Below are positions 30,175 to 49,369 of a stretch of DNA of 64,000 nt, one piece after another. How positions within the stretch are numbered: position 1 is the first letter of the stretch; every line of letters begins with the position of its first letter. The stretch is from an uncultured Paracoccaceae bacterium. Lineage in GTDB: Bacteria > Pseudomonadota > Alphaproteobacteria > Rhodobacterales > Rhodobacteraceae. Where the stretch lies: positions 1 through 64,000 of the forward strand of contig CAJWNQ010000006.1 in NCBI GenBank assembly GCA_913043905.1. The letters are read 5' to 3'. The position numbers were made by a program, and so were the translations under genes. The notes under the pieces were generated by a model that saw only the letters and a program-made list of their open reading frames with translations, did not search any database and was not told where the DNA came from.

Positions 30175-31173
30175 TTATTTGTTTGCTGAACTGAGGGAGC
30201 TATTTTCAAGAGTAAGATTGGTTTTATTCTTGCGAAGTTGTGCTGGGCTATATTGGAAAACTTGTTTGAATTTCTGAGAAAAGTATTGAACGTTTTCATA
30301 GCCTGCAGATATTGCAATTTCCAAAATTGGCATCGATGTCTGTGTCACTAAAGCATGTGCATGTTCTAGGCGGATTTCGGTGTAAAACTTATTTACTTTT
30401 TTACCTAAGTTTTTTTGAAATAAGCGACTTAGTTGGCGTTCTCCAATATTACTTAGGCTCGCAATTTGATCACTAGTTAGTGGATCTGATATATGGTTTT
30501 GCATTAGTTCAATAGCACAAATTACAGCAGGGTGGTGAACGCTGTACTTTTCAACTAGCCCCATCCGCTGTGGATCGTTTGCATCACGGACACTGGTGTA
30601 GATAAACCAATCATTAACAGATTTTGCTAAATTTCGTCCATGTTGTGAGGCAATGAGCGCACTCATCATATCCATTGGTGCAACACCTCCAGCACAAGTA
30701 TATCTACCCTTATCTATTACATATAGTGATCGTTTCAATAAAAACTGTGAAGACATTTCTTGTAGGGCATCGAAGTGATCCCAATGGACTGTAAAGCTAT
30801 GATTTGTCATAACACCAGCGCGCGCCAACAAAACAGACCCACCAGAAATTCCTCCAAGTTGAACACGTTTAGAGGCCAACATTTTTATGTATTTTAATAG
30901 TTTTGGGCTTTCGTGTGTAATTGGGCTTCCTGCAGCAGTTACAAAAACAAGATCAAAATCATATCCACTATCTTCAATTGATTTGCCTTCGCTAATTATC
31001 CCAACAGAGGAACTGGACCGGGTTCCTGAGGCTGGAATAAATGTGATTTCAAATAGGGTTTCACCAGAAAGATGGTTGGCTGCACGTAATGGTTCAACTG
31101 CAGAAGATAGTGACATTAATGAAAAACCATCAACTAAAATAAAGCCAATTTTTTTTATTTTTTTTTCATTCAT
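30175..31173 (-). CDS. GlxA/GbdR-type AraC-family transcriptional regulator
   Basis: This 332-residue regulator has an N-terminal class I glutamine-amidotransferase-like (DJ-1/PfpI) domain (KIGFILVDGFSLMSLSSAVE, GGISGGSVLLARAGVM) and a C-terminal AraC helix-turn-helix pair (LTSDQIASLSNIGERQLSRL, EIAISAGYENVQYFSQKFKQ). This architecture is shared by GbdR, CdhR and SouR of Pseudomonas, which sense glycine betaine, carnitine and sarcosine. It diverges from tdm with about 180 bp between the starts, so it is the obvious candidate activator of TMAO demethylation. The inducer is inferred, not seen. The ribosome site is weak. Confidence 0.88.
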   Translation of the reverse strand: MNEKKIKKIGFILVDGFSLMSLSSAVEPLRAANHLSGETLFEITFIPASGTRSSSSVGIISEGKSIEDSGYDFDLVFVTAAGSPITHESPKLLKYIKMLASKRVQLGGISGGSVLLARAGVMTNHSFTVHWDHFDALQEMSSQFLLKRSLYVIDKGRYTCAGGVAPMDMMSALIASQHGRNLAKSVNDWFIYTSVRDANDPQRMGLVEKYSVHHPAVICAIELMQNHISDPLTSDQIASLSNIGERQLSRLFQKNLGKKVNKFYTEIRLEHAHALVTQTSMPILEIAISAGYENVQYFSQKFKQVFQYSPAQLRKNKTNLTLENSSLSSANK

Positions 31174-31351
31174 TTTATAAAATCACTTTTAGTTCAAATA
31201 ATTTGTTGTGTGTTTTAAATTTAAATCTCGGTTACGGGTAATTTCGATTAAGTATGTAATTTCTAACACCAAAAAGTTGCAAAAAAAAACTTATCTGCTA
31301 TTCTTGTTATTAAATAAATATTCCCACAATGCAAGTTTTGATAGGTTAACA

Positions 31352-33969: not shown

Positions 33970-33993
33970 ATTAATTGAAATAATCGATATCTA

Positions 33994-35322
33994 TTAAATA
34001 TCCATTGTATTTGTTTTTTCCCAAGATGAAAAATGCGAACAGAAATCATTCCATTCTTGATGTTTCATTTTTAGATAGGCTGCTGAAAATTCTGCACCCA
34101 TTGATGCTTTTAGTTCTGTGTCTTCGTCATATGCACGTAATGCATCTAACATGTTCAATGGTAGTTTTGGTGCATCTGTGATTTTATAACCCTCAGCATA
34201 CATATCGATGTCGTGACGCTTGCCAGGATCTGCCTTTGAGTGAACACCTGAAAGACCTGCGGCAATAATAATAGCCTGTAATAAATATGGATTAACCGCA
34301 CCATCAGGTAATCGTAATTCAAAACGCCCAGGGCCAGGAACACGCACCATATGTGTACGATTATTGCCAGTCCAAGTAACTGTATTTGGTGCCCATGTTG
34401 CACCTGACATTGTTCTGGGTGCATTGATGCGTTTATAACTATTTACTGTAGGGTTAGTAATTGCGGCCAAAGCAGATGCATGCTTCATTATACCGCCCAA
34501 GAAATGTTTACCACGTTCAGATAGGCCAACTTCACCCGTTTGTCCTTCACCTTTACCTGCAAAAACATTAACTTTTGAAGCCGATCCTGGTGCATCCCAT
34601 ACAGAAATATGAGCATGGCAACCATTGCCAGTTAAACCTTCTATTGGTTTAGGCATGAAAGTTACACGATAACCATGCTTTTCGGCAACACATTTAGCCA
34701 TAAATTTAAAAAAGCTGTGTTTATCTGCTGTTTTTAAGGCATCATCATAATCCCAGTTCATTTCCCATTGGCCATTGGCGTCTTCATGGTCGTTTTGATA
34801 TGCTCCCCAACCCATTTCTAACATATAGTCAGAGATTTCACGAATAACATCTAAGCGGCGCATAAATGCTTGCTGATCATAACAAGGTTTGGCTGCTGTA
34901 TCGTAGGAATCAGAAATTTTCTCACCATCTGGTGTTAAAAGAAAAAACTCAGCTTCAATTCCAGTCTTTACATACATGCCCTCATCGGCGGCTTCTGCGA
35001 TTAAGCGACGTAATACGTTACGTGGTGCTTGGGCAACATCTCTACCTTCCATGACGCAATTACCAGGAACCCACGCTATGGTTTTATCCCAAGGTAATAT
35101 AATAACTGCTTCTGGATCTGGAACTGCTAGCATATCAGGGTGTGCAGGTGTTAAGTCTAACCATGTTGCAAAACCTGCGAAACCAGCCCCATTGGCCTGC
35201 ATGTCCGCAATAGCTCGTGCTGGAACAAGTTTTGCACGTTGGCCACCAAAAAGGTCAGTGAAAGAAATCATAAAGTATTCAACGCCATTATCTTTGGCAA
35301 ATTTAGCAAGATCTATTGTCAT
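33994..35322 (-). CDS. gmaS: gamma-glutamylmethylamide synthetase
   Basis: This 442-residue glutamine-synthetase-family enzyme would ligate methylamine to glutamate with ATP, giving gamma-glutamylmethylamide, the first step of the N-methylglutamate pathway. Visible parts include SFTDLFGGQRAKLVPARA at the N-terminus, the catalytic GIEAEFFLL, NGCHAHISVW, and the C-terminal PGPGRFELRLPDGAVNPYL. It is closer in form to GlnT/GmaS than to the GlnA housekeeping type. The neighbouring mgsABC genes, in the same direction, encode the next step, which makes GmaS far more likely than an ammonia-specific synthetase. A strong terminator separates it from mgsC. Confidence 0.92.
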   Translation of the reverse strand: MTIDLAKFAKDNGVEYFMISFTDLFGGQRAKLVPARAIADMQANGAGFAGFATWLDLTPAHPDMLAVPDPEAVIILPWDKTIAWVPGNCVMEGRDVAQAPRNVLRRLIAEAADEGMYVKTGIEAEFFLLTPDGEKISDSYDTAAKPCYDQQAFMRRLDVIREISDYMLEMGWGAYQNDHEDANGQWEMNWDYDDALKTADKHSFFKFMAKCVAEKHGYRVTFMPKPIEGLTGNGCHAHISVWDAPGSASKVNVFAGKGEGQTGEVGLSERGKHFLGGIMKHASALAAITNPTVNSYKRINAPRTMSGATWAPNTVTWTGNNRTHMVRVPGPGRFELRLPDGAVNPYLLQAIIIAAGLSGVHSKADPGKRHDIDMYAEGYKITDAPKLPLNMLDALRAYDEDTELKASMGAEFSAAYLKMKHQEWNDFCSHFSSWEKTNTMDI

Positions 35323-35387: not shown

Positions 35388-36734
35388 TTAATATCCAGTA
35401 CCTGGTTTGCCAGGCCACCAGTCAGTTCCTGAAAGTGGAACGCGAGCCATTGCAGCAGCTTCCATCGTCAATGCAACCAAATCTTCAGGTTCTAGATTGT
35501 GCATGTGATTTTTTCCACATGCACGAGCAATCGTTTGTGCTTCTAGGGTCATTACTTTTAGATAATTACGTAAACGCCTGCCACCCTCAATAGGGTCAAA
35601 GCGCTTCATCAATTCAGGATCTTGAGTTGTAATTCCGGCAGGATCTTTGCCTTCGTGCCAGTCATCGTACGCGCCAGCTGTTGTTCCAAGCTTATTGTAT
35701 TCAGTTTCCCATTTTGGATCATTATCTCCCAAAGCGATTAATGCGGCTGAGCCAATTGCAACAGCATCTGCACCTAAAGCCATTGCTTTGGCAACATCAG
35801 CCCCAGAGCGAATGCCGCCGGATAAAATTAATTGTACCTTGCGGTGCATTCCCAAATCTTGGAGGGCTTGAACGGCGGGTCGAATAATTGCTAAAGTAGG
35901 TTGCCCAACATGTTCAATAAATACGTCTTGTGTAGCAGCAGTACCACCTTGCATGCCGTCTAATACAACGGCATCGGCGCCTGCCTTAACAGCTAAAGTC
36001 ACATCATAATATGGGCGGGCACCAGCCACTTTAACATAAATAGGCACTCTCCATCCCGTAATTTCTCTAAGCTCAAGAATTTTAATTTCTAAATCATCTG
36101 GCCCTGTCCAGTCAGGATGGCGACAGGCAGAACGTTGGTCAATTCCTTTTGGAAGATTACGCATCTCAGCTACACGGTCCGAGATCTTTTGACCAAGTAA
36201 CATACCGCCACCACCTGGTTTTGCGCCTTGCCCAACTACAATTTCGATTGCGTCTGCTTTACGCAAATCATCTGGATTCATACCATAGCGTGATGGTAAA
36301 TATTGATAAACTAATTTAGAAGAATGCCCACGTTCTTCAGGTGTCATGCCTCCATCACCAGTTGTCGTAGATGTTCCAGCAGCTGATGCTCCACGCCCCA
36401 AGGCCTCTTTTGCTGGGCCTGATAGCGCACCAAATGACATCCCAGCTATTGTAATGGGAATGTCTAATTCAATTGGATTAGAGGCATGTAATCCGCCGAT
36501 AGTAACTGATGTTTCACATTTCTCACGGTAACCTTCGAGCGGGTAACGTGAAATAGAAGCGCCCATAAAGAGCAAGTCATCAAAGTTGGGCACTTTGCGT
36601 TTAGCGCCACCACCTCGAATATCATAAATGCCTGTCGCTGCTGCACGACGAATGTCGCTGTTTACATCACTGGTAAACGTCGCTGATTGGCGAGGTGTTG
36701 TGTGTGGAATGCCATTTTCATCATGTGAACTCAT
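35388..36734 (-). CDS. mgsC: N-methylglutamate synthase subunit C (FMN glutamate-synthase-like)
   Basis: This 448-residue protein corresponds to the FMN-binding core of glutamate synthase: AGMSFGALSGPAKEALGRGA, VVGQGAKPGGGGMLLGQK, AVVLDGMQGGTAATQD and LILSGGIRSGADVAKAMALGA form the TIM-barrel active site. With MgsA and MgsB it would transfer the methylamine group of gamma-glutamylmethylamide to give N-methylglutamate. It is third in a tight mgsA-mgsB-mgsC operon, 12 bp after mgsB, with AAGGAATTTTAAA before its ATG. Standalone use as a glutamate synthase is unlikely in this context. Confidence 0.92.
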   Translation of the reverse strand: MSSHDENGIPHTTPRQSATFTSDVNSDIRRAAATGIYDIRGGGAKRKVPNFDDLLFMGASISRYPLEGYREKCETSVTIGGLHASNPIELDIPITIAGMSFGALSGPAKEALGRGASAAGTSTTTGDGGMTPEERGHSSKLVYQYLPSRYGMNPDDLRKADAIEIVVGQGAKPGGGGMLLGQKISDRVAEMRNLPKGIDQRSACRHPDWTGPDDLEIKILELREITGWRVPIYVKVAGARPYYDVTLAVKAGADAVVLDGMQGGTAATQDVFIEHVGQPTLAIIRPAVQALQDLGMHRKVQLILSGGIRSGADVAKAMALGADAVAIGSAALIALGDNDPKWETEYNKLGTTAGAYDDWHEGKDPAGITTQDPELMKRFDPIEGGRRLRNYLKVMTLEAQTIARACGKNHMHNLEPEDLVALTMEAAAMARVPLSGTDWWPGKPGTGY

Positions 36735-36745: not shown

Positions 36746-37429
36746 TTAGTAAGCTGCCGCATTATCGACATCAAAATTATATAAATTGCGTGCTGAACCG
36801 TAGCGTTTGAATTCTTCAGGCTTTGCATCACTCTCAGCTTCAGCTAATAATTCTTTTAAAATCTGAATGTGTTCTGGGCGCATTTCTTTTTCTTCACAAT
36901 CCGCTCCAAGACTCTTCACGGAGCCTCGTACAAATAAACGGGCCTCATAACAACTATCTCCCAACGCATCGCCTGCATCCCCACATACAACTAGATTACC
37001 TGATTGCGCCATAAAAGCAGACATATGACCAATGTTGCCATGTACTACAATGTTTATGCCTTTCATAGAAATACCACAACGTGACGATGCATTACCTTTA
37101 ATAACAAGTAACCCGCCATGTCCTGTAGCACCGGCATATTGGCTGGCATCGCCTTCTATAATGACTTTACCTGACATCATATTTTCCGCGGTACCTGGAC
37201 CAGCTGAACCAACAACTTTAATTGTCGCCTTTTGGTTCATTCCACCACAATAATACCCAGTAGACCCCTTGATAGTCACTTCAATTGGTGAGTCTAGGCC
37301 GACAGCTATAGCATGTGATCCCTTGGGGTTTATTACCTCCCAAGCTGTTTGATTTGTATCTTCAATCTGCTCATGCAGGGTGGAGTTGAGTTTGCGCAAT
37401 CCAAGCGCTTCTAAATCGAAAGTTTGCAT
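36746..37429 (-). CDS. mgsB: N-methylglutamate synthase subunit B (GXGXG domain)
   Basis: This 227-residue protein is composed almost entirely of the right-handed beta-helix GXGXG domain found at the C-terminus of glutamate synthase (GSTGYYCGGMNQKATIKV, GPGTAENMMSGKVIIEG, GATGHGGLLVIKGNASSRCG). It is a structural and channelling partner in the three-subunit N-methylglutamate synthase. The start at MQTFDLEAL overlaps the mgsA stop by one base (TAATG), so it is coupled to mgsA. A start four codons earlier is also possible. Confidence 0.91.
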   Translation of the reverse strand: MQTFDLEALGLRKLNSTLHEQIEDTNQTAWEVINPKGSHAIAVGLDSPIEVTIKGSTGYYCGGMNQKATIKVVGSAGPGTAENMMSGKVIIEGDASQYAGATGHGGLLVIKGNASSRCGISMKGINIVVHGNIGHMSAFMAQSGNLVVCGDAGDALGDSCYEARLFVRGSVKSLGADCEEKEMRPEHIQILKELLAEAESDAKPEEFKRYGSARNLYNFDVDNAAAY

Positions 37430-38325
37430 TAATGTGTCCAAAAATAAACGGTTGCGGGTTCAGGTTCCCATACTCGGGCCTCTTCAATACCAGGAAGGTT
37501 TACCAATGCGCGATACTCAGAACCGAATGCCACATATTGATCTGTTTCAGCCATAACAGCAGGCTTGCAAGCAATTGGATCACGCACGACACCAAAGCCA
37601 TCTTTTGTTCCAACTAAAAAAGTAAAAAATCCATCCAAATCCTTAAGGCTACTTTCAAGAGCTTCACCTAGTGTACTGCCTTGTTGCATTTTGTATGTCA
37701 AATATGCAGCGCCAACTTCTGTATCGTTTTCTGTCTCTATGTGCACGCCCTCCCGGCGCAGTTTTCGCCGCAATGAGTTGTGGTTTGAAAGTGATCCGTT
37801 ATGGACTAGGCACTGGTCACTTCCCGTGGAAAATGGATGCGCACCCATTGTTGTGACAGCTGATTCTGTTGCCATACGAGTGTGGCCGATACCATGTGTC
37901 CCAGACATTGAGGATATGTCAAAACGAGCTGCAACATCTTTTGGTAAGCCAACTTCTTTATATATCTCGATAGTATCACCAGCACTCATTATGCGAACAG
38001 ATGGGCGGATCTTGTTCAGGGCTGAGCGTACTGAATTTACCTCAGATGCGTCCATTTCCAAAACTGCATGAGTACTTTTTCTTTTAACTGATACTTTCGT
38101 GCCAGTAGCTACTTTAATATCTTGTTCTAAATTAGGGAAAACTTCATCTGGGGTGTCTGATTGAATAGTAATTTTACCATTTTTATTATCATCAGATCCA
38201 TAGATGGCAATTCCAGCACTATCTGGTCCACGATCAGTCATGGTGACTAACATATCACTTAACATAGCACCTAATTCAGGTTCTAAACTTTTATCCTTTA
38301 GGAATAATCCAACGATCCCGCACAT
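37429..38325 (-). CDS. mgsA: N-methylglutamate synthase subunit A (glutamine amidotransferase class II)
   Basis: This 298-residue Ntn-type amidotransferase has the catalytic cysteine at position 2 (MCGIVGLFLKD) and GIGHTRMATESAVT and CLVHNGSLSNHNSLRRKL downstream. In the pathway it would release the methylamine group from gamma-glutamylmethylamide for transfer by MgsC. It is first in the mgsABC operon with AAGGAGCACGGCAC before the ATG. A strong bidirectional hairpin about 90 bp upstream isolates this operon from the amt genes. Confidence 0.92.
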   Translation of the reverse strand: MCGIVGLFLKDKSLEPELGAMLSDMLVTMTDRGPDSAGIAIYGSDDNKNGKITIQSDTPDEVFPNLEQDIKVATGTKVSVKRKSTHAVLEMDASEVNSVRSALNKIRPSVRIMSAGDTIEIYKEVGLPKDVAARFDISSMSGTHGIGHTRMATESAVTTMGAHPFSTGSDQCLVHNGSLSNHNSLRRKLRREGVHIETENDTEVGAAYLTYKMQQGSTLGEALESSLKDLDGFFTFLVGTKDGFGVVRDPIACKPAVMAETDQYVAFGSEYRALVNLPGIEEARVWEPEPATVYFWTH

Positions 38326-38413: not shown

Positions 38414-38447
38414 GCAAAAAAAGAGCACCCGTTTTAGGTGCTCTTTT
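38414..38447 (-). terminator. intrinsic terminator downstream of the amt operon
   Basis: AAGAGCACC and GGTGCTCTT form a 9-bp perfect stem with a 7-nt loop. On the minus strand it is followed by a run of T residues, and it lies about 17 bp after the stop of the small amt-linked gene, upstream of mgsA. The other strand also carries a short T-run. Confidence 0.88.
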
Positions 38448-38679: not shown

Positions 38680-38692
38680 TTATCGTGCTCCC

Positions 38693-40051
38693 TTATTTAG
38701 ATTTGATATGTTTAGCGCTGGCAGCAGTGATTTCTGCAACCGCATCGTCGTAAGCTTGTTGCCCACCTAGATCTAATCCTTGAAGTTCAACCTCTGCTGG
38801 AATGCGCAACGTGCCACGAGCGGCTTGGATGCGTGCTACAACATAAGCTGGAATAAATCCAAGAACTAAGAACATGATAATCGCACCAGCTAATTGGCCC
38901 CAAGGTGTGATTACAGCATAGCCTTCGAATGGAGAGCTTGGTGCGCCCCAAAGAACAAAACCAGCAATTACTACACCTAAGAAACCTGCATAACCATGCA
39001 CGGCAACTGCGCCTACTGCATCATCAATTTTGAACTTACGTTCAACATAATTATGAAGTTTGTATGCAATTACTGGAACAATAGCACCAATAATTAGTGC
39101 CTGCATTGGATGGTAAAGATCATTACCTGCAGATGCGCCAATAATACCAGCAAGGCCACCAGAGAATGTCCAGAAAGCATCGCCTTTGGATACAATGTAC
39201 GTAGCCATTAATCCACCCGATAGAGATAGAAGGAAGTTAACTGTAATCGCGCCTAAAGTAGTTGGTGCCAAGTAAATGTTTGTTGCAGTCCATGTAGTGC
39301 CAACGATTTCACCGCCAATAACTTCTGGAGATATCAAAGGAACATTACAAGCGGCGTAAAAACCCCAAAAACCTGTATAGATCATGAATATACCCAATGT
39401 AACCATCCACGGGTTATGTGGAGGAATATCACGTGGCTTACCATTTGAAGCAAATTTACCAATGCGTGGGCCAAGGACCCATAAAACACCTAAGGCATAA
39501 CCACCTGCAATTGCGTGAATGACGCCAGATGCATATGCATCGTGATAGCCTAAGTATTTGACCATCCAGCCACCATAATGCCAACCCCAAGACGCATCAA
39601 TAATCCACCAAACAGAACCGATCAAAACTGCGTGAACCCACAAAGCCGATGAACGAATTCGTTCAATCACAGAGCCTGACACAATTGATGCGGCTGTCCA
39701 TGAGAACAACAAGAATGCTGCCCAGAATACGCCAGTGATTCGATCACCTGCGTTCGTACCCATGGTTTCAGACCAGGGTGCATTTGCACTGCCTGCTGCC
39801 ATATCTAGACCACCAAAAAGTGGGAAATTTGGGAAAGCCCAATAAATCCACCACCCAAAGAAAAAGAATGTAACGGTTACAAGTGGTATAATCATTACGT
39901 TCTTCATTAGCGTGTGCATATGGTTTTTCCTGCGACTCGCTCCGACTTCATACATACAAAACCCAACATGGATTAAGAACATAAACACTACAGTTACCCA
40001 GTAATAGAACTCGGTAAATATGGTGGTTAATGCATTAAGATTGCCATCCAT
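38693..40051 (-). CDS. amt: Amt-family ammonium/methylammonium transporter
   Basis: This 452-residue protein has about eleven membrane helices. The two pore histidines are present in ASGVIHAIAGGYALG (about residue 180) and AVAVHGYAGFLGVV (about 350), and FLIHVGFCMYEVGASRRKN marks the N-terminal helix. The sequence is divergent from typical AmtB. Family members conduct ammonium and often methylammonium. Lying between mgsABC and dmmDABC, it could take up or recover methylammonium or ammonium from amine breakdown. GGGGAGACGAAA precedes the ATG, with a small GAGGC hairpin in the leader (40071-40086). No glnK is adjacent. Confidence 0.9.
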   Translation of the reverse strand: MDGNLNALTTIFTEFYYWVTVVFMFLIHVGFCMYEVGASRRKNHMHTLMKNVMIIPLVTVTFFFFGWWIYWAFPNFPLFGGLDMAAGSANAPWSETMGTNAGDRITGVFWAAFLLFSWTAASIVSGSVIERIRSSALWVHAVLIGSVWWIIDASWGWHYGGWMVKYLGYHDAYASGVIHAIAGGYALGVLWVLGPRIGKFASNGKPRDIPPHNPWMVTLGIFMIYTGFWGFYAACNVPLISPEVIGGEIVGTTWTATNIYLAPTTLGAITVNFLLSLSGGLMATYIVSKGDAFWTFSGGLAGIIGASAGNDLYHPMQALIIGAIVPVIAYKLHNYVERKFKIDDAVGAVAVHGYAGFLGVVIAGFVLWGAPSSPFEGYAVITPWGQLAGAIIMFLVLGFIPAYVVARIQAARGTLRIPAEVELQGLDLGGQQAYDDAVAEITAASAKHIKSK

Positions 40052-40303
40052 TTTCGTCTCCCCTTTAAACGAGGCTATTTTGCCTCTTAGTAAATATTTA
40101 TTAATAGTAGTAGAGATAAGCCTAGTTTTTGTTTAATTTGTCAACGAATGTTATTAAAAAACATAATTTATTGCCTCTAAGGAATATTTTTTTAGTATCA
40201 GTCTTGCTTTTTGCCTTTATTCGGGTCTGTATGGTAAGAGGGGAAAATATCAAATTATGAAATATATATACTAAAATTTATTTAACAAAATTAAGGAAAT
40301 TAA

Positions 40304-41449
40304 ATGGCAATTATTTGGAGACACTCGGTTCTGGCCAGCCGCCACGCAGCAATTGGTGGTGAGTTGGAAGACTGGAATGGTATGGGAACTGCATGGTTCT
40401 ACGACAATACTGCGGAGCGTGCGCAAGCTGATTATGAGGCAATTCGAACTAAAGCAGGCCTGATGGACGTTTCAGGTTTGAAAAAAGTACACTTAGTTGG
40501 CCCAGACGCTGCATATGTTATTGATCGTGTCACTACACGTAATGTTGATAAAATTGGTGTGGGTCGTTCAACTTATGCTGCCATACTAAATAGTGATGGC
40601 AAATTTATTGATGACTGTGTTATTTATCATTTGAACGTAAATCAGTGGATGGTCGTGCACGGTACGGGTACCGGTATGGAGCAGCTAACATCAGTTGCAG
40701 CTAGTAAAAATTGTGCAGTACTATTTGATGATGATCTACATGATATGTCCTTACAAGGGCCTGTCGCAGTTGACTTCTTAGCTAAGCACATCGATGGCAT
40801 TCGTGATCTTGCATACTTTGGCGTAATGCATACTAAATTATTTGGTAAAAATGTCATGATTTCACGAACTGGTTATACTGGTGAGCGTGGATATGAGATT
40901 TATGTTGGATCAAAAGATGCAGTTCATGTTTGGGATAATATATTATCTGATGGTGAGGCTATGGGTATTCGCCCAGTTCAGTTCTCAACATTAGATTTAT
41001 TGAGAACTGAGAGTTACCTTCTGTTTTATCCTGGTGATAATTCTGAAACTTATCCTTTTGACGATGAAGTATGTGGAGACACGCTTTGGGAGCTAGGGCT
41101 AGACTTTGTTGTCTCACCAGGGAAAATTGGATTTATTGGTGCTGAAAATCATTATGCAGCAAAAGGTAAAGAGCGTTTCAAAATTTATGGTGTATTATTA
41201 GATGGAATGACACCTGCTGATGAAGGCGCTGAGCTGCTTCAAGATGGTGTTAAAGTTGGTGATGTAACTTTTGGTATGTATTCTAGCGTAAATTCACATA
41301 ACGTTGGCATTGCACGTATGCCTGTTGATGCTGCCAAACCAGGGACTAAACTTACCGTGCGCAATGGTGATGGGTTGGAAATAGCATGTACCGCAGAAGA
41401 AATGCCCTTCTATGATACTGATAAATCTATTCGCGCAGCAAAGGGATAA
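40304..41449 (+). CDS. dmmD: dimethylamine monooxygenase-associated GcvT-like protein
   Basis: This 381-residue protein has the folate-binding GcvT fold (AKAGLMDVSGLKKVHLVGPDA, VMISRTGYTGERGYEIYVG, LDLLRTESYLLFYPG). It is not the glycine cleavage T protein, since gcvH and gcvP are absent and it heads a four-gene set in the exact dmmD-A-B-C order known from roseobacters. It probably accepts the methylene unit released from dimethylamine onto tetrahydrofolate, in parallel with the C-terminal half of Tdm. DmdA, a related DMSP demethylase, is the main alternative, but the context argues against it. A GC-rich hairpin follows the stop. Confidence 0.85.
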   Translation: MAIIWRHSVLASRHAAIGGELEDWNGMGTAWFYDNTAERAQADYEAIRTKAGLMDVSGLKKVHLVGPDAAYVIDRVTTRNVDKIGVGRSTYAAILNSDGKFIDDCVIYHLNVNQWMVVHGTGTGMEQLTSVAASKNCAVLFDDDLHDMSLQGPVAVDFLAKHIDGIRDLAYFGVMHTKLFGKNVMISRTGYTGERGYEIYVGSKDAVHVWDNILSDGEAMGIRPVQFSTLDLLRTESYLLFYPGDNSETYPFDDEVCGDTLWELGLDFVVSPGKIGFIGAENHYAAKGKERFKIYGVLLDGMTPADEGAELLQDGVKVGDVTFGMYSSVNSHNVGIARMPVDAAKPGTKLTVRNGDGLEIACTAEEMPFYDTDKSIRAAKG

Positions 41450-41527: not shown

Positions 41528-42136
41528 ATGTCTAATTTTTCATTTCCAGAATCGATTAAAAGTCGTCCAACGTATGCAAAACTAGAGGCTCGAGCTGGCA
41601 AATCATATTTATTTGTAGCAGATGCTGAAGGCGCTGAGGCAATTATTGACCTGGCAAGTAATGATAAAAGTTTAATGTTTAAAGCTCACGTTATTTACAT
41701 ACCAAAAAATACGGGTAAAAAATATACGTCACAGTTAGAAAAGCTTGATATAAATCAGCTTTATATTGGGCCATCTTATACAGCTGCACAGTCTAGATTA
41801 AAACGTACTTTGGAATCCTCTCATATGGGGCTACAATTATTTCTATCAGGAACAGAAGGTTTAATAGGTCAAGCACAACGTGACGCGATGGCCGCAGGTA
41901 TCCCCCACACCGCTATTCAATCTGAGCATCGTGGTTCTGTTGGGCGCCGAATGCAGTGTGTCCATTGTAAAGGTATTACTGAAGATGTGGACGTTGACCC
42001 ATTTGTTTGTTCACATTGTGGGTTAAGCCTATTTGTTCGTGATCACTATTCGCGGCGTTTAGCAGCATTTCAAGGCGTTTGCATTGATGCTGAAGAGCCT
42101 GGGAACATACCAACAGCCGTGGAGCTTTACAAATGA
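41528..42136 (+). CDS. dmmA: dimethylamine monooxygenase subunit A (DmmA family)
   Basis: This 202-residue protein has the C-terminal Cys4 knuckle CVHCKG (about residue 144) and CSHCG (about 161) expected of DmmA-family subunits, preceded by an alpha/beta region without recognisable catalytic motifs. It is the small component of dimethylamine monooxygenase, which oxidatively demethylates dimethylamine to methylamine. The stop overlaps the dmmB ATG by 4 bp (ATGA). Naming relies on the D-A-B-C gene order plus the zinc-ribbon-like motif. The exact electron or structural role is not established here. Confidence 0.84.
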   Translation: MSNFSFPESIKSRPTYAKLEARAGKSYLFVADAEGAEAIIDLASNDKSLMFKAHVIYIPKNTGKKYTSQLEKLDINQLYIGPSYTAAQSRLKRTLESSHMGLQLFLSGTEGLIGQAQRDAMAAGIPHTAIQSEHRGSVGRRMQCVHCKGITEDVDVDPFVCSHCGLSLFVRDHYSRRLAAFQGVCIDAEEPGNIPTAVELYK

Positions 42137-43095
42137 GTGGTTCAGAAAAAATTAATGTAGAAGTTTCAAAAATTATTCCCTTGAATAATTTGGTAACACG
42201 TTTTGAATTTAAACGTATTGATGGTGAACTTTTCCCAACCTTTTCAGGGGGTGCGCACACTATTGTTGAAATGAAGGATGGTGGAATTATACGGCGCAAC
42301 CCATATTCTCTAATGTCTGATCCTATGGATCAACATAGCTATGCTATTTCAGTTCGTCGTGATGATGAAGGCCGAGGTGGATCATTATTTATGCACAACA
42401 GTCTACAGGTAGGTGACGATATGGTTTTAAGCTATCCTGTTAATCTTTTCTCATTGGATCTTCGTGCAAAAAAGCATTTGATGATTGCCGGAGGTATTGG
42501 AATTACGCCATTTATGGCACAAATTAAGCAACTTGATAGGTCTCAGGGAAATTGGGAGCTGCATTACTCTGCTCGTAGTCCAAGTTTGAGCGCTTATGCT
42601 GATGAATTACTAACAATGCACCCAAATAATGTTCACATGTATTATGATTCTGAAAATAAAAGTATAGATCTTGAAAACCTTTTAGATGGGCAACCACTAG
42701 GCACACATTTATATATTTGTGGGCCAAAAGGAATGATTGATTGGGCAGTTGGCCAAGCTGTAAATCTTGGGTGGCCAAGTGAAGCCATTCACTATGAAGA
42801 ATTTTTGGCCCCTAAGCCAGGCAAACCATTTCAGGTAATGTTATTAGCATCAGATAAGTTAGTTTCGGTTGGTGAAAATGAAAGTTTGCTTGAGGCAATC
42901 GAGCGTGAAGGTGTTGACGCACCATACCTTTGTCGTGGTGGTGCATGTGGTCAATGTGAGACTACAGTTATTGAATCTGACGGTGAGTTTATTCATATGG
43001 ACCACTGGTTGGAAGATGAAGAAAAATTATCCAGGAAAAAAATAATGCCATGTGTTTCGCGCTTTGATGGTAAAACGCTAGTATTAGATAGGTAA
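42133..43095 (+). CDS. dmmB: dimethylamine monooxygenase reductase subunit (PDR/VanB type)
   Basis: This 320-residue oxidoreductase resembles phthalate dioxygenase reductase: a flavin domain with RRNPYSLMSDP (about residue 54), an NAD domain with MIAGGIGITPFMAQI and YICGPKGMIDWA, and a C-terminal 2Fe-2S ferredoxin domain with CRGGACGQCETTV (about residue 266) plus the fourth cysteine in MPCVSRF. It passes electrons from NAD(P)H to the monooxygenase. The start overlaps dmmA by 4 bp, and dmmC begins 5 bp after its stop, so all three are co-translated. Confidence 0.91.
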   Translation: MSGSEKINVEVSKIIPLNNLVTRFEFKRIDGELFPTFSGGAHTIVEMKDGGIIRRNPYSLMSDPMDQHSYAISVRRDDEGRGGSLFMHNSLQVGDDMVLSYPVNLFSLDLRAKKHLMIAGGIGITPFMAQIKQLDRSQGNWELHYSARSPSLSAYADELLTMHPNNVHMYYDSENKSIDLENLLDGQPLGTHLYICGPKGMIDWAVGQAVNLGWPSEAIHYEEFLAPKPGKPFQVMLLASDKLVSVGENESLLEAIEREGVDAPYLCRGGACGQCETTVIESDGEFIHMDHWLEDEEKLSRKKIMPCVSRFDGKTLVLDR

Positions 43096-43100: not shown

Positions 43101-44165
43101 ATGACAATTCAATTTAACGATGAAACATTCCGTGGTGATTATACATTTAAAAATTCTGGATGGGCTCTAAAACGATTTCCGTTTCCGTTTCATGAAGATA
43201 GTTACATGTATTCGGTTAACATGGAGCAACATAAAGGAGGGCCAGCAGGTTCAATCTATGAAAAACGCTTTGATGTTGATGAGCATTATTTATCTGAAAT
43301 GCGGGATCGTGCAGAAGTTTTGAAAGAAGATCCGCTCCGCTGCCAATCTTTACCAAATATGACTTTGGCAGGTTGGGATTTGCTAGAACTTATTATGGTT
43401 TCGAAATCTGAAGACTATCCTGATATGTTTGAATTGCAGCGTAAAGGTGACAAATGGCGCTGGATAAACAAGCCGATGGAAATCGATGATAGTTTTACCT
43501 TTCTTGATGAAGCAACATTACCATATGGCCCAATGGAATATATTACGAGACAAACACAGGGAGATTTTGTTGTGTTAGATCAGCGTGATGAAAATCTGTG
43601 GATGGATGCCGGCATGGTAACGACACAAGCAGATTGGTCCTTAGATTTTGATATAGGTATGAATTTCTTTGAGTGGCATGCACCTGTACCCAAAGCTCAT
43701 GAAATGGGTATTTTTGTCCGTGCTTTGAAGTTCTTATTAAATGTTCAGCAAGGCGCTCCGGCCCGACGTTTAAATTGGACGATGACTGTTAACCCATTGC
43801 TGGATACTAGTCCTGAAAATTATCACAAATGGGGCACTCAAAAGCGAACAGTCACCGCTGATAATATTGGTGAAAAACAATTTCTACGTGTTGAGTTACA
43901 AACTTTTTTTAGATTACCACGTTCTAATGCTTTGGTATTTCCTATTCGATGCTATTTAGCATCATTTAATGACTTGATGACTGTGCCCAAATGGGGACGT
44001 AGATTGCATCGCGTTATACGAGATCTACCAGAAGAATTAGCAACATATAAAGGCTTTATTGATAATCGTCCAATGATGCTAGATTATCTTTCAAAATTTG
44101 ATGATGGGAAACCAACGTCAAATGGTATTTGGCCTGATCGAGAGACTGAACCTTTACGTGATTAA
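43101..44165 (+). CDS. dmmC: heme-dependent oxidative N-demethylase-type subunit (DUF3445), DmmC
   Basis: This 354-residue protein belongs to the heme-dependent oxidative N-demethylase (DUF3445) family, with FPFPFHEDSYMYSVNMEQHK at the N-terminus and RVELQTFFRLPRSNALVFPI and IRCYLASFNDLMTVPKWGRR near residues 255-300, parts I associate with this family. As the likely oxygen-activating subunit it would demethylate dimethylamine with electrons from DmmB. The heme ligand is not identified from sequence. Its last 4 bp overlap the stop of the convergent XRE regulator gene. Confidence 0.88.
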   Translation: MTIQFNDETFRGDYTFKNSGWALKRFPFPFHEDSYMYSVNMEQHKGGPAGSIYEKRFDVDEHYLSEMRDRAEVLKEDPLRCQSLPNMTLAGWDLLELIMVSKSEDYPDMFELQRKGDKWRWINKPMEIDDSFTFLDEATLPYGPMEYITRQTQGDFVVLDQRDENLWMDAGMVTTQADWSLDFDIGMNFFEWHAPVPKAHEMGIFVRALKFLLNVQQGAPARRLNWTMTVNPLLDTSPENYHKWGTQKRTVTADNIGEKQFLRVELQTFFRLPRSNALVFPIRCYLASFNDLMTVPKWGRRLHRVIRDLPEELATYKGFIDNRPMMLDYLSKFDDGKPTSNGIWPDRETEPLRD

Positions 44166-44782
44166 GTTATCTGTGGATATGATATAATTGATAAATACTT
44201 TGCAGGAAGCTTTGTTAATTTTACAGGTCCATGAGGAGCATCGGCATCAAAAAATAATGTATCTCCTGGCTTCAGTGGATATATTTTATCACCATGGCGG
44301 TAGTCAATTTCGCCTTCAAGTATGTAAATAGTTTCGATTCCATCATGTTGAAACGTTTCAAATGTATCAGATTCGCTTGTTAATGAAATTAAGTAGGGTT
44401 CAACAATAACTCCACTTGAATTTGCCCCAATGTGACCAAGAAGATTATATTGATGTCCTGCTCGGGTGCCTGCGCGTTCTAATTCAACCCCTTCACCTGA
44501 TTTAGTATGCTCGGCTGTTCGCGAGCTTTCGTAACCCCTAAAAAAAGCAGTTATAGGAATCATAAGAGCATCAGCTAGTGTTTGTAATGTATTTAATGAT
44601 GGAGATGTATTTCCATTTTCAATTTTTGATAACATTCCAATGGAGAGGCCAGTAGACGCTGCTAGATCTGCAACAGTCATAGATCTTTGGCGGCGATGGG
44701 ACTTCACTTCACGACCGATTGCGAGTTCCAGTACTTTTTCACGAGGCTCTCTTATTCGGTGTGGGTTTTGTTCAAGGTTCAC
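44162..44782 (-). CDS. XRE-family regulator with cupin sensor domain
   Basis: This regulator of about 206 residues has an N-terminal XRE helix-turn-helix (SMTVADLAASTGLSIGMLSK, then IENGNTSPSLNTLQTLADAL) and a C-terminal cupin domain (ETIYILEGEIDYRHGDKIYP, LKPGDTLFFDADAPHG). Such HTH-cupin proteins are often amine-pathway regulators, as with PuuR. The GTG at 44782 is preferred because AGAGGT lies 8-13 bases before it. An ATG 72 bp further upstream adds a basic extension. It sits between dmmDABC and tmoX and points away from tmoX, so it probably regulates one or both. Effector unknown. Confidence 0.87.
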   Translation of the reverse strand: MNLEQNPHRIREPREKVLELAIGREVKSHRRQRSMTVADLAASTGLSIGMLSKIENGNTSPSLNTLQTLADALMIPITAFFRGYESSRTAEHTKSGEGVELERAGTRAGHQYNLLGHIGANSSGVIVEPYLISLTSESDTFETFQHDGIETIYILEGEIDYRHGDKIYPLKPGDTLFFDADAPHGPVKLTKLPAKYLSIISYPQIT

Positions 44783-45087
44783 AGCTTTTACCTCTTTAAT
44801 GGTTAAGGAATGCTTTATATAATCTTTCTTACATGTAGTTTTTAGTAAATGCACTATTTTTGAATAATTATCCTTATTATAGTAAAATAAACTAGCCTTT
44901 AGAATGAAAAAACTTGATTGATAGGAAAAATGTGCAATACTTATTTATGTTGAGTGAAAAGTATTTGTAAAGAATCACAAAACTGTCTCAACAGGCCATT
45001 GCATTTGCAGGGGTCATTTAGCGCTAAAAGATCAGTGAATTACACAGACGAGCGTAAAAACTAATGAGTTCAATAGGGGAGAATAAA

Positions 45088-46032
45088 ATGAAAATCTTAA
45101 AAAGAAATATCGCAGCCGCTGCGCTGTCAATGACACTGGCATCTACTGGGGGTCAAGTGTTTGCTCAAGACTCAAACAAGCCGATCGTTATCCCGACGCA
45201 CAACTGGTCTAGCCAAGTTGTTATGGCCTATGTAATTGGTGGCATCTTTGAAACGATGGGTAATAGCGTAGAATATGTTCCTGCAGATACTCAAGCAGTA
45301 TATGAGGCAATTCGTAATGGTGATGTGACAATTTCACATGAAGTTTGGCAGTCTACTTTTGGCGCCTCATTCTACAACGCGATGGCAAAGGGTGGCATAA
45401 TTGATGCCGGAACTCATGCAGCTATGACGCTAGAAGAAATGGGTGTTCCTCAATATGTAATTGATGACAATCTATGCCCAGGGTTACCAAATTGGGAAGC
45501 TTTGAAAAACTGTCCAGAAGTTTTTGCAACTGCAGATTCTGGTGGTAAAGGCCGTTGGCTTGAAGGTCCACAAAGTTGGCATGGTGACCAGATGCCAGAG
45601 CGAATTGCTGGTTTAGGACTTGATGATAAGTATATGGTTAAGTTTGCTGGGTCTGCTGATGCCTTATGGGCAGAGCTTGCGTCTGCAAAAAAAGATGGTC
45701 GTGGTGTTATCACGTTCAACTGGACACCTAATTTTACTGATGCTGAAGGTTTTGTCTTTATTGAATTTCCTGAGTACTTTGACGGATGTCGAGTTGGAGA
45801 TGGTGGAGATGGTGCTTGTGGTTCACCAAAAGGTTGGTTGAAGAAAGCTGCTAACTATAAGTTCCCAAAGACGCACCCAGCTGCGTATACTGCATTTAGC
45901 AAGATTTCGTTCACTTCTACTGATATCGGCCAAATGGCTGCCTTAGTAGATGTAGATAAAATGAGCCATCAGGATGCTGCTAAAGCTTGGCTTGCAGCCC
46001 ATGAAGATGTGTGGAAGCCTTTCACACAATAA
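45088..46032 (+). CDS. tmoX: TMAO/betaine-type ABC transporter substrate-binding protein
   Basis: This periplasmic binding protein has about 314 residues and a clear signal peptide (MKILKRNIAAAALSMTLAST, cut after VFA). OpuAC-type features include tryptophans in THNWSSQVV, SHEVWQSTF, GPQSWHGD and FNWTPNF, suiting a methylated-amine pocket. An acidic glycine-rich loop (RVGDGGDGACGSP) may bind metal, and TmoX from Ruegeria is reported to bind calcium. The start at 45088 follows AGGGGAG directly, better than an ATG 24 bp earlier. Context with tmoW, tmoV, tdm and dmm favours TMAO over choline or betaine. A terminator-like hairpin follows. Confidence 0.88.
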   Translation: MKILKRNIAAAALSMTLASTGGQVFAQDSNKPIVIPTHNWSSQVVMAYVIGGIFETMGNSVEYVPADTQAVYEAIRNGDVTISHEVWQSTFGASFYNAMAKGGIIDAGTHAAMTLEEMGVPQYVIDDNLCPGLPNWEALKNCPEVFATADSGGKGRWLEGPQSWHGDQMPERIAGLGLDDKYMVKFAGSADALWAELASAKKDGRGVITFNWTPNFTDAEGFVFIEFPEYFDGCRVGDGGDGACGSPKGWLKKAANYKFPKTHPAAYTAFSKISFTSTDIGQMAALVDVDKMSHQDAAKAWLAAHEDVWKPFTQ

Positions 46033-46048
46033 ATTATCCTATAAGATA

Positions 46049-46083
46049 TCCTGTAACGCATGCGTGCGTTACAGGACTTTTTT
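46049..46083 (+). terminator. intrinsic terminator between tmoX and tmoW
   Basis: TCCTGTAACGCA-TGCG-TGCGTTACAGGA is a perfect 12-bp hairpin with a 4-nt loop, followed by CTTTTTT, 17 bp after the tmoX stop. It would end most transcripts after tmoX, producing more binding protein than ATPase and permease, a common arrangement in ABC importer operons. Confidence 0.92.
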
Positions 46084-46227
46084 CACTATAAGCTAACAAT
46101 AGTAGAAGTGTTATAAGAGATGAATATGCTTTCTCTTTTAACAAATTCGAATTTTGTATCGATGGCCTATAAACTAACACACATCCAAAAAAATTCGTGA
46201 ACCAATCCGTTTATTAGGAACCAGTCT

Positions 46228-47298
46228 ATGATTTCTCAAAGTAAAAGTAATTCAACCGCTCAGCCTGTTATAAAATGTGTTTCTGTCTGTAAAATATTTG
46301 GTGAAAATGCTAATAAATTGCTGAAACAATCTAATGGAGTGATTGATGCTAAAACCTTTCAGGATGCTGGTTGTGTAGTTGGGGTAAATAACGCCTCCTT
46401 TGAAGTACATAAAGGTGAAATGCTCGTTGTGATGGGGCTGTCTGGATCAGGCAAGTCAACTTTACTGCGTTGTATTTCTCGACTGGCCGATACTACTGCT
46501 GGGGATATTTTTATTGATGGACAAGACTTGTTAGCAATGAGTTCAAAACAACTTATAGAACTTCGCCGAAATAAGATGGGAATGGTATTTCAAAATTTTG
46601 CGTTGTTACCTCATAAAACAGTTTTAGAGAATATTGCATTTCCACTTCAGGTTAAAGGCTATGGCACGGAAGATAGTATAAAGCGGGCAGTTGAGATGGT
46701 TGAGCTTGTGGGATTAAATGGGCGGGAAAACTATTTCCCGCGAGAATTATCTGGAGGACAGCAACAGCGTGTAGGGATTGCTCGATCTTTGGCAGTAGAG
46801 CCGGACATTTGGTTTTTAGATGAGCCATTTTCTGCACTAGACCCTCTTATTCGTAAAGAAATGCAGGATGAGTTTTTACGATTACAAGGTGTCCTTAATA
46901 AGACAATTTTATTTGTTACACATGATTTTAATGAGGCACTACGGCTTGCTGACAGAATTGCTATAATGAAAGATGGCGTTATTGAACAACTCGACACTCC
47001 AGCCAATATAGTACTAAATCCAGCTACTGAATATGTTCGGAAATTTACTAAAGAAGTACCAAGAGAAAAGGTTCTTAAAATTGAATCTGTGATGGACCCT
47101 ATAGAAAAAATAACAGATTTTGGTTCCTTAAAAGTTTCAAGAAATGCTATTATTGAAACAGTTGCTGAGGCAATTCTAACAGAACAAAAAAATGTTGCAG
47201 TTGTAGATGACAATGGGGCAGTCATTGGCTCAATACATGCCTCAAAAATTATTCAGATATTATTTGGTAACTCAGATTCATTTGAGCAGAGTAAGTGA
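46228..47298 (+). CDS. tmoW: TMAO/betaine-type ABC transporter ATP-binding protein
   Basis: This 356-residue ATPase has Walker A GLSGSGKST, signature LSGGQQQRVGIARS and Walker B WFLDEPFSALD, and a C-terminal extension (about residues 270-340) resembling the CBS-like sensory part of ProV/OpuAA (AILTEQKNVAVVDDNGAVIG). An insertion before Walker A (about residues 28-60) is also typical of this group. It energises uptake through TmoV at the inner membrane. The gene stands 195 bp downstream of tmoX, after a terminator, and its stop lies 10 bp before the tmoV start. Confidence 0.93.
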   Translation: MISQSKSNSTAQPVIKCVSVCKIFGENANKLLKQSNGVIDAKTFQDAGCVVGVNNASFEVHKGEMLVVMGLSGSGKSTLLRCISRLADTTAGDIFIDGQDLLAMSSKQLIELRRNKMGMVFQNFALLPHKTVLENIAFPLQVKGYGTEDSIKRAVEMVELVGLNGRENYFPRELSGGQQQRVGIARSLAVEPDIWFLDEPFSALDPLIRKEMQDEFLRLQGVLNKTILFVTHDFNEALRLADRIAIMKDGVIEQLDTPANIVLNPATEYVRKFTKEVPREKVLKIESVMDPIEKITDFGSLKVSRNAIIETVAEAILTEQKNVAVVDDNGAVIGSIHASKIIQILFGNSDSFEQSK

Positions 47299-47308
47299 GA
47301 ATTTATTA

Positions 47309-49369
47309 ATGAATTACATTGAAAAACATCCAAAACTTATACAGTTTATATTTTTATTAGTAATATTTTTCACTATCTGTTTTTTGGTTTCTCCTTCGGA
47401 AACAAATATTTTATGGAGGTTACCTTCGCTGTTTGCGGGTGTTCCTTTAGTAATTAATAACTTTGCAGAATATTTAATGTATGATTGGATGCTAATTGAA
47501 ATTTATGATCCTGAACTAGAGGAATATGAAGATTCTGCGCTTGTAAAAGAAATTACAAGAAGCTTTTCAAGAAGTGTCTTATTTTGTATTGAGGTTATCC
47601 GAGATATTTTACTGGGGGGCGTCAAGACAATTGTTGCGTTTACCAGTTGGGATTTCGTAAAGGAAAATCAATGGGCGGTTTGGCCTGCGTTACCTTGGAC
47701 TTTAGTTGCATCAGGAGTTATGCTTCTTGGCTATGCGTTAAAAGGCAAGGGATTAGCGCTATTTGCTGGGTTTGCTACTGTTTACATAGCTGTTTTTGGT
47801 CAGTGGGAGCCAGCAATGGAAACACTTTCATTCGTATTAATAGCGGCACCTACTTCATGTCTTCTGGGGCTCTTGTTTGGTGTTTTAGCCTATAAAAACC
47901 GAACTGTTGAAGCGACTTTAATGCCTTTGCTAAATATAGCGCAGACGATGCCGCATTTTTCTTATTTAGTACCGGTAATGGTATTTTTTGGTGTTGGTGA
48001 CCATGCGGGTGCAATTGCTACTATTATTTTTGCTACGCCACCCATGATAAGATTGACACTTTTAGGTCTTAAGGGTGTTGCACCTGAAGTTGTTGAAGCT
48101 GGAATGATGAATGGCTGTAATAACATCCAACTGATGTTTAAGGTACTTATCCCAACTGCACGACGTGATATTCTGATAGGTATAAATCAAGTAATTATGC
48201 AATGTTTAGCAATGGCGGTTATAGCCTCTTTCATTGGTGCTAAGGGGCTTGGATTTAATTTATTACTGGCATTAAATCAGTTGCGAATTGGTCAAGCTTT
48301 AGAACTTGGAATTTGTATTGTTCTTATTGCAGTTGTTTTGGATAAATTGTCTCTGGCTTGGGCTAATAAACAAACAGATTACTTTGCTGATCTTAGCTTT
48401 ATTCAGAAGCATAAATATGGTTTTTACTTTTTAGCGTTGATATTATTTACTATTATGTGTGCATATTTGGGGAGCATAATTTTTGCAGATGGGATAAATT
48501 ATTTATATTTAATTCCGCACAATAGGGGTATCACTACAGAGCTTTTTTGGCAGTCTGGTGTCGATTGGATGGTGGATAATTGGTACCATGGCTTACAAGG
48601 GTTTAATACTGCATTAATTGTTAAGGTTTTAATGCCAATGAAAGCCGCTTTTTTAGGTATGCCTGTAAGTGCTACCTTTGTTCTGATGATGGGCCTTGGC
48701 TACATCATTGGGGGTACAAAGTCTGCATTAACTGTTGGTGGATTTTTATTGTTTATTGCTTTAACTGAATGGTGGGATAGAGCATTGATTACTGCTTATA
48801 TGACTACATTTGGGGTTATCGTCTCAGTGATAATTGGCGTCACAGTGGGATCATTATGTGCCCAAACTTCATTCACGAGCAAAGCTATATTACTTGTTTG
48901 TGATACCTTCCAGACGTTTCCATCGTTCATTTATTTAATTCCAGTAATTATGCTTTTTGGAGTTACAGATACCTCCGTTTTAATTGCGGTTATAGTATAC
49001 TCAACAATTCCTGCCACGCGTTACACCGTAGAAGGATTACGAAATGTGCCGCAATCTTTGCAGGATGCAGGTTCTATGTCGGGGGTGAACCGAATGCAAA
49101 GATGGCTCAAAATCGAAATGCCACTTGCCTTTCCACATATTATGCTAGGAATTAATCAAACTGTTATATTTGCACTTTTCATGGTCATTATTGGCGCAAT
49201 GATTGGAACTGATGATCTTGGCCAGTATATTTTAAAAGCGCTGTCAGATAAAAATGGCATTGGAAATGGGCTTATGTTGGGGTTGTGTGTAGCCTTTATT
49301 GGTTTGGCTGTAGATCACTTAATTCACACTTGGGCGGATCAACGCAAATTAATATTAGGTTTGAAATAA
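47309..49369 (+). CDS. tmoV: TMAO/betaine-type ABC transporter permease, duplicated form
   Basis: This permease of about 686 residues carries two complete binding-protein-dependent permease modules. EAA-type loops are visible at about residue 262 (NGCNNIQLMFKVLIPTARRD) and about 585 (AGSMSGVNRMQRWLKIEMPL), each within a five-to-six-helix membrane block. Fused duplicates are typical of TmoV, whereas ProW has one module. The start is the ATG at 47309 (MNYIEKHPK). An upstream in-frame start would overlap tmoW by about 90 bp. It completes the tmoX-tmoW-tmoV importer. Confidence 0.91.
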   Translation: MNYIEKHPKLIQFIFLLVIFFTICFLVSPSETNILWRLPSLFAGVPLVINNFAEYLMYDWMLIEIYDPELEEYEDSALVKEITRSFSRSVLFCIEVIRDILLGGVKTIVAFTSWDFVKENQWAVWPALPWTLVASGVMLLGYALKGKGLALFAGFATVYIAVFGQWEPAMETLSFVLIAAPTSCLLGLLFGVLAYKNRTVEATLMPLLNIAQTMPHFSYLVPVMVFFGVGDHAGAIATIIFATPPMIRLTLLGLKGVAPEVVEAGMMNGCNNIQLMFKVLIPTARRDILIGINQVIMQCLAMAVIASFIGAKGLGFNLLLALNQLRIGQALELGICIVLIAVVLDKLSLAWANKQTDYFADLSFIQKHKYGFYFLALILFTIMCAYLGSIIFADGINYLYLIPHNRGITTELFWQSGVDWMVDNWYHGLQGFNTALIVKVLMPMKAAFLGMPVSATFVLMMGLGYIIGGTKSALTVGGFLLFIALTEWWDRALITAYMTTFGVIVSVIIGVTVGSLCAQTSFTSKAILLVCDTFQTFPSFIYLIPVIMLFGVTDTSVLIAVIVYSTIPATRYTVEGLRNVPQSLQDAGSMSGVNRMQRWLKIEMPLAFPHIMLGINQTVIFALFMVIIGAMIGTDDLGQYILKALSDKNGIGNGLMLGLCVAFIGLAVDHLIHTWADQRKLILGLK

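Follow-up and report, generated by a model that had tools for sequence, protein, structure and literature searches.

Amt-family protein and its one-helix partner

The window analysed here is the whole of a 64,000-nucleotide stretch of DNA (contig CAJWNQ010000006.1, assembly GCA_913043905.1) from an uncultured Paracoccaceae bacterium. It holds a 19-kb block of 16 genes, which profile searches identify as a regulator, tdm, gmaS-mgsCBA, a small gene with an Amt-family gene, dmmDABC, an XRE-cupin regulator and tmoX-V-W (Table 1). A first-pass annotation had named these genes at 30175-49369, and Pfam and NCBIfam profiles recover them there in the order it gave, except in the transporter: all three tmo genes are present, but their true order is X, V (the ATPase) and W (a double permease) rather than XWV. 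The Amt-family protein and the small protein encoded directly after it are the main subject of this analysis.

The Amt-family protein belongs to the Amt/Rh superfamily by its PF00909 score, by a best Foldseek E of 8e-14 to Amts and by the retention of H168 and H318. In a tree, types A, B and D of an amine-linked superclade split together from the canonical Amts with 100/100 support, the window protein being of type A; the tree has several long branches and the placement of type D is unsure. Residues are given in what we take to be E. coli AmtB numbers, placed through an alignment that does not contain E. coli AmtB itself. The position of Ser219 is occupied by Cys in 81/81 type A and 23/23 type B proteins and by Thr or Val in the 2 of type D, and that of Asn216 by Tyr in 81/81 of type A, by Leu (22) or Met (1) in type B and by Ala or Thr in type D. 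This S1 recruitment site, Ser219/Asn216, is altered in all 106 superclade rows, whereas Ser and Asn are retained in 21/21 canonical Amts; the window protein, with Cys/Tyr, falls outside canonical AmtB. The fold, W148, D160, the twin histidines H168 and H318 and the gate residue F215 are common to canonical and window-type Amts, the five residues being conserved across all types, and F107 is kept in type A and in 22/23 of type B (the remaining one has a gap) and lost in type D. The 23 type B rows are L051 (second Amt), L052-L057, L239-L253 and L255, with the plasmid matches H9, H10, H13 and H14 left out. In same-genus genomes (L052, L053, L055, L056) a type B Amt, at ~39-42% identity, fills the slot between mgsA and dmmD. 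Judged from its sequence, the window Amt is not an ordinary ammonium channel copy. Upstream of amt, at 40052-40303, lie short direct repeats AGAGGCAA and an inverted repeat, and the repeats possibly form an operator.

The partner, a 71-residue protein with one transmembrane helix, looks like the product of a real gene, since the nonsynonymous divergence (dN) is below the synonymous divergence (dS) in 9/9 pairs with a usable dS (ten were compared; the tenth had none) and GGGAG precedes its ATG. Its AlphaFold model displays a long helix at residues 26-70 and a short helix at residues 13-19, with a mean predicted local distance difference test (pLDDT) of 81 and a predicted template modelling score (pTM) of 0.44. 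No Pfam or NCBIfam family matched the partner over cut-off, and no credible relative was found in the PDB. The partner profile also matched solved structures (FliL at E 0.04, cornichon at E 0.3-0.5 and another at 3.3), but these matches were taken as chance for a single helix. The small protein sP36 of Methanosarcina mazei is likewise tied to an Amt, yet the available part of its description (PMC10714827) gives it no transmembrane helix and a bridging role to GlnK, whereas the window partner is a predicted membrane helix encoded right after amt. A GlnK-like or sP36-like identity was not supported, as no family matched and sP36 lacks such a helix. At one type A locus (L046, 12062-12274) the partner helix shows faint similarity to part of an Amt (TIGR03644 positions 194-221, E 0.041), and at another (L069) the partner is longer than the rest, with 87 residues. 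Fourteen plasmid records hold an Amt match. Identity is 77-82% in three of them, and it is these that carry the type A partner, annotated as a 'hypothetical protein' in two and without a called gene in the third. In the Parasedimentitalea marina plasmid the type A Amt match lies in three pieces. A hairpin between the partner gene and mgsA (Table 1) would terminate the amt-partner transcript; the promoter and terminator scan of the window gave counts that were not above those of shuffles (13 terminators vs 14.9 shuffled).

The type A loci are the best 80 of at least 575 relatives in an Amt alignment scan of genome_contigs (84,980 species). A same-strand partner open reading frame (ORF) lies downstream of amt in 80/80 type A loci and starts 11-86 bp past the amt stop in 79/80; at L130 the start picked lies 192 bp from the stop and is unsure. 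For types B and D, short ORFs lying no more than 200 bp from amt were filtered for a hydrophobic segment, and a short one-helix ORF is found at 23/23 and 2/2 loci, respectively, with its start at -4 to +64 bp relative to the amt stop. The same crude filter picks an ORF at 4/20 canonical loci (L219, L221, L222, L224), none fitting either partner hidden Markov model (HMM), and fails at L046 of type A, whose partner is plain by alignment. The partner HMMs of types A and B matched 0/21 canonical Amt loci. The type A HMM matches 2/23 type B loci (the 23 include L051, where a type A pair is present as well), and the type B HMM matches 4/80 type A loci; the latter was built from the same 23 type B loci and fits them by construction. 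An early indication that type B has no partner (the type A HMM was empty at L014-L019) was rejected when annotated plasmids showed a different short ORF, the negative being a limit of the type A profile. As compared with canonical Amt/AmtB, the superclade displays S219 replaced by Cys and N216 by Tyr or Leu/Met (types A and B), a downstream one-helix ORF and a separate clade.

The partner profiles, compared with hhalign, gave 92.9% (E 3.7e-7) for A-D, 51% (E 1.5e-4) for A-B and 26% (E 7e-4) for D-B, with reversed controls at 1-3% (E 0.01-0.05). A common origin is likely for the type A and type D partners and only suggested for those of types A and B. Among 385 genomes of the class the type A partner occurs in 36, the type A Amt in 37 (three in pieces) and both in 35, the exceptions being G197 (a weak match with an internal stop), G349 and G232 (Amt fragments). 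When partner loci were fetched, an Amt lay upstream in 29/30, the one without being a short locus (L145). Alignment A3 has 58 rows; L130 and L080, whose partner start is uncertain or lost at the edge of the locus, and some others among the 80 are not in it. Alignment A4 has 33 rows and omits L121 and L124, which have a stop codon within the sequence given, as well as others.

Linkage was scored, at fixed thresholds, as a methylated-amine gene, a SoxA-family gene or a glnT-like/mgs-like paralogue in the flank. It is seen for 73/80 type A and 18/23 type B Amts, the latter splitting into 7/7 loci (L051, also with a type A Amt, among them) and 11/16 loci, and for 0/20 canonical Amts and 0/1 of the source's own canonical Amt. 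One type D locus (L257) adjoins a dimethylformamidase gene; dimethylformamidase is a source of dimethylamine (DMA). In twelve loci (L109, L115, L118, L120, L123, L128, L132, L133, L135, L231, L232, L234) a cluster of paralogous glnT-like (~30%) and mgsABC-like (MgsC 51-54%) genes adjoins the Amt-partner pair, and in L231 and L234 it also has a SoxA-family gene (32-33%). Record JAFKDC010000009.1 (L064) is titled Enemella evansiae, which we take to be an actinobacterium, and matches a contig of G034, a genome indexed in the same family as the window; a wrong label is likely.

Enzymes, importer and setting of the island

From their families, TmoXVW would import trimethylamine N-oxide (TMAO), Tdm would split it into DMA and a one-carbon unit, DmmABC with DmmD would yield monomethylamine (MMA), and GmaS with MgsABC would pass the nitrogen via gamma-glutamylmethylamide to N-methylglutamate (NMG). 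This route had been proposed in the first-pass annotation, and both the family assignments and the residues support it well. HMM searches, which it had called for, placed Tdm, GmaS, DmmA, DmmC, Amt and TmoX in their families.

Table 1. Features of the island, with window coordinates.
Feature	Coordinates	Strand	Evidence
AraC-type activator with DJ-1/PfpI-like (GlxA/GbdR-type) N-domain	30175..31173	-	GbdR 263 bits (below cut-off 480), HTH_18, DJ-1_PfpI
tdm, TMAO demethylase, 789 residues	31352..33721	+	NF053776; solved Tdm 9q59
gmaS, gamma-glutamylmethylamide synthetase	33994..35322	-	TIGR03105; 7cql 604 bits
mgsC, N-methylglutamate synthase, flavin mononucleotide (FMN) subunit	35388..36734	-	Glu_synthase PF01645, 289 bits
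mgsB (GXGXG)	36746..37441	-	PF01493
mgsA (glutamine amidotransferase domain)	37429..38325	-	PF13522, PF13537
Hairpin and T-run between partner gene and mgsA	38421..38445	-	read by eye; not listed in terminator scan
One-helix partner of Amt, 71 residues	38464..38679	-	conserved ORF after amt
Amt-family protein, type A of amine-linked superclade	38693..40051	-	PF00909 180.9 bits; tree
dmmD, GcvT-like	40304..41449	+	profile matches; PMC5520151 (available part)
dmmA	41528..42136	+	NF041259, PF22290/PF22289
dmmB, reductase	42133..43095	+	Fer2, NAD_binding_1, DmmA-like_N
dmmC, haem-dependent oxidative N-demethylase	43101..44165	+	PF11927 (HODM); 5lte 444 bits
XRE-cupin regulator	44162..44854	-	HTH_3, Cupin_2
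tmoX, TMAO-binding protein	45064..46032	+	PF04069; 4xz6 298 bits
tmoV, ATP-binding cassette (ABC) ATPase	46228..47298	+	profile match
tmoW, two permease stretches fused in one protein, 686 residues	47309..49369	+	profile match

Tdm scores 1178.7 bits against the cut-off of 1100 of the equivalog NF053776, which places it within that family, and 1156 bits against the solved trimethylamine N-oxide demethylase 9q59. The ATG at 31352 is the more likely start than the GTG at 31208 that opens the ORF, since the alignment to the solved enzyme covers residues 52-837 of the longer frame. GmaS scores 633.6 bits (TIGR03105 cut-off, 469.6). Aligned to 7cql and read by eye, it keeps the catalytic Asp177, Glu186 and Arg312 and the MMA pocket, together with Trp300 and Ala48 as in GmaS, whereas the glutamine-synthetase marker residues (Asp50'/Glu-flap) are absent, so that it falls within the GmaS family. 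The numbering is drawn from the available part of PMC7948447, and 7cql, named a type III glutamate-ammonia ligase, was taken as the Rhodovulum GmaS of that paper. A DmmA-family protein, a reductase, a HODM-type DmmC, which aligns to the solved heme-dependent oxidative N-demethylase 5lte, and a GcvT-like DmmD stand in a single run, as expected of DmmDABC; the role of DmmD would be linked to tetrahydrofolate (THF). TmoX, aligned by eye to R. pomeroyi TmoX (4xz6), keeps 7/7 pocket residues (Trp55, Trp102, Phe106, Glu131, Trp177, Phe220 and Trp222; numbers from the available part of PMC8918994). TmoW probably starts at 47309, although its ORF opens at 47207.

The best-scoring profile of the regulator upstream of tdm is GbdR, below its cut-off, and a TmaR-like role may be assigned to it. 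The protein is 25-32% identical to AraC-type proteins beside dmm genes of roseobacter loci and 40-43% to those at some other loci, R. pomeroyi TmaR not being among the proteins compared; the TmaR clade is defined by over 44% identity to R. pomeroyi TmaR in the available part of PMC13390433.

Annotated window genes span 28828-54313, in DNA of ~39% G+C. The island is flanked on the left by aroQ and an HpcH-type aldolase and on the right by xanthine dehydrogenase genes together with a LysR regulator. The closest relative with a name, an uncultured Amylibacter metagenome-assembled genome (L040/L059), has an Amt 99% identical (L059) and the same island order, with 91-100% protein identity per gene; this conservation excludes chance as the origin of the island. 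The host is thus most probably an Amylibacter-like roseobacter of low G+C content. TmoX is 98% identical to the window protein in L040, 83% in L043 and 49-51% in L041, L042, L048, L052, L053, L054 and L056, while DmmC, where present, stays at 86-90% in these last seven. The enzymes are stable, and the importers (the Amt type and the tmoXVW stock) are exchanged at fixed sites of an island that is conserved in other respects. The regions of importer exchange are window 38464-40051 and 45064-49369, as compared with L040-L043, L048 and L052-L056.

The first-pass annotation had regarded the grouping of all parts, the Amt and the two regulators as less usual, yet the available parts of three papers (PMC7574528, PMC5520151, PMC13390433) already describe them for roseobacters, so that they are usual. 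The amt, glxA and XRE genes recur in roseobacter clusters for trimethylamine (TMA), DMA and MMA (Fig. 5 legend of PMC7574528, 2020). Similarly, amtB is in the Fig. 1 legend of PMC5520151, a source that also reports dmmDABC in a SAR116 member, and the R. pomeroyi cluster SPO1548-1588 is described with TmaR, an activator of AraC type, and TmoR, a repressor of GntR type (PMC13390433). According to the parts available, SPO1548-1588 of Ruegeria pomeroyi DSS-3 and other roseobacter clusters share tdm, gmaS-mgs, dmmDABC, tmo, amt and regulators with the window, the regulators being AraC-type TmaR or, in PMC7574528, GlxA and XRE types. In contrast to those clusters, tmm, tmoR and mgdABCD were not found inside the window block. 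The Ruegeria conchae plasmid NZ_CP081104 (L238) resembles the window in XRE, dmmCBAD, amt, a 71-residue hypothetical protein, mgsABC, gmaS (annotated glnT) and a glycine-betaine-type ABC transporter, but differs in including folD and formate-THF ligase, and no gene annotated as, or sized like, tdm was seen in the stretch examined. The block is an Amylibacter-like example of an already known kind of gene cluster.

End of the pathway within the assembly

The first-pass annotation called the module self-contained, which does not hold: the block ends at NMG, mgdABCD is not in the island, and no MgdC-like protein was found in the source assembly (92.65% complete, 83 contigs). N-methylglutamate dehydrogenase is not in the block and its MgdC-like protein was not found, so that the encoded route runs from TMAO as far as NMG. 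A single full-length SoxA-family protein occurs in the assembly, with 67-95% identity to one group of relatives' proteins but only 40-43% to the SoxA-family proteins adjoining dmm genes, which were taken, by position, as MgdC. The nearest relative (G002) holds both kinds on different contigs, its MgdC-like gene lying off its island contig, and the G002 region with this gene gave six short matches only in the 92.65%-complete assembly. NMG would be oxidised by an enzyme encoded outside the island; this last step may be either encoded elsewhere and unassembled or carried out by another enzyme.

Searched for a Tmm-like flavin-containing monooxygenase, the same assembly gave 0 matches over the PF00743 cut-off and one short match below it (20.6 vs 22 bits). 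In genome G000, contigs C7, C9, C10, C31 and C34 carry several frames of 778-882 residues with a GcvT-like C-terminal match, which are possible alternative demethylating dehydrogenases. On the R. conchae plasmid (L238, 1-6783), glyA, PEP (phosphoenolpyruvate) carboxylase, coenzyme A (CoA) ester lyase, D-glycerate dehydrogenase and sucD adjoin the island and possibly form a serine cycle; no serine-cycle genes are among the annotated window genes.

Function of the Amt-partner pair

The reading we favour, and think probable, is that of a roseobacter methylated-amine island whose Amt and partner form a two-part methylammonium transporter. The pair would take up free monomethylammonium, and perhaps DMA as well, from the surroundings and would recapture what leaks out. 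Bound to the Amt trimer within the membrane, the partner would have an outward-facing N-terminus and would tune substrate or activity. On this reading, Amt and helix would form a complex, and the altered S1 site would favour a methylated ammonium ion. As a wider and distinctly more tentative proposal, types A, B and D may be a distinct class in which a dedicated single-helix subunit makes of an Amt trimer an importer with high affinity and specificity for methylammonium (or dimethylammonium). This importer would be the methylamine transporter that is missing for marine bacteria, carried on a cassette swapped in and out of amine islands.

Several observations weigh against the transporter reading. 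Canonical Amts transport methylammonium too, so that the specificity of the Amt is not readable from its sequence, and the predicted Amt model is only fair (pLDDT 71). The type A loci were a non-random choice. In the available flank 7/80 type A and 5/23 type B Amts are unlinked, and 0/2 of type D are linked. The canonical control is unmatched for the pathway, as an Amt of type A or B occurs in only 5/20 of its genomes. GmaS is lacking at E 1e-100 in 8/37 type A genomes; near the Amt of those eight, a glnT-like, mgsC-like or tdm match is found in six and none in G120 and G348. Conversely, 32/67 GmaS genomes hold neither Amt type, so that the pathway can do without the Amt.

The strongest rival holds that the Amt handles ammonium, recapturing or releasing the NH4+ of amine breakdown, with the small protein as a regulatory subunit replacing GlnK-type control. 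We consider it possible though rather doubtful. The Amt fold and gate of the window protein agree with it, as do, from the parts of the sources available, the cross-feeding of ammonium by methylamine-degrading Rhodobacteraceae (PMC7574528) and the control of AmtB1 in Methanosarcina by the 61-residue sP36 (PMC10714827). However, sP36, without a transmembrane helix, differs in build from the partner, Ser219/Asn216 is changed throughout the superclade and kept throughout the canonical Amts, and most loci link the Amt to amine genes. A sensor of outside amines, with the partner relaying the signal, is improbable: the solved chains nearest by sequence and fold (6eu6, 8qj3/8qj4) are named sensor or receptor Amts, but plain AmtB chains rank closely behind in the fold search, the Pfam search found no signalling domain in the window Amt, and the partner is 71 residues with one long helix. 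That the island is an incomplete remnant without NMG dehydrogenase, as the missing MgdC-like protein and the six short matches of the G002 region might indicate, is very improbable, given that the island ORFs are intact and 91-100% identical at the protein level in L040, that the assembly is incomplete and in 83 contigs, and that the MgdC-like gene of G002 is itself on a contig separate from the island.

For the two-part transporter, a published precedent is the gmas-mgsABC-amt operon of Pseudomonas sp. C5pp, whose amt was proposed as a methylamine transporter (PMC8292978); amt adjoins gmaS-mgs as in the window, and the available part of that paper mentions no small partner. Searched by title or abstract start, the open-access literature gave no article about a small protein paired with an amine-linked Amt and, as far as these searches show, the partnered Amt is a variant of its family that has not been described. 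Methylated amines make up an important share of the dissolved organic nitrogen in the sea and have been linked to cloud condensation nuclei (PMC13390433, available part). The enzymes of their catabolism are known, and the parts available of the literature cited here describe no proven MMA importer. The Amt and its partner are a concrete candidate gene pair, open to deletion and assay.

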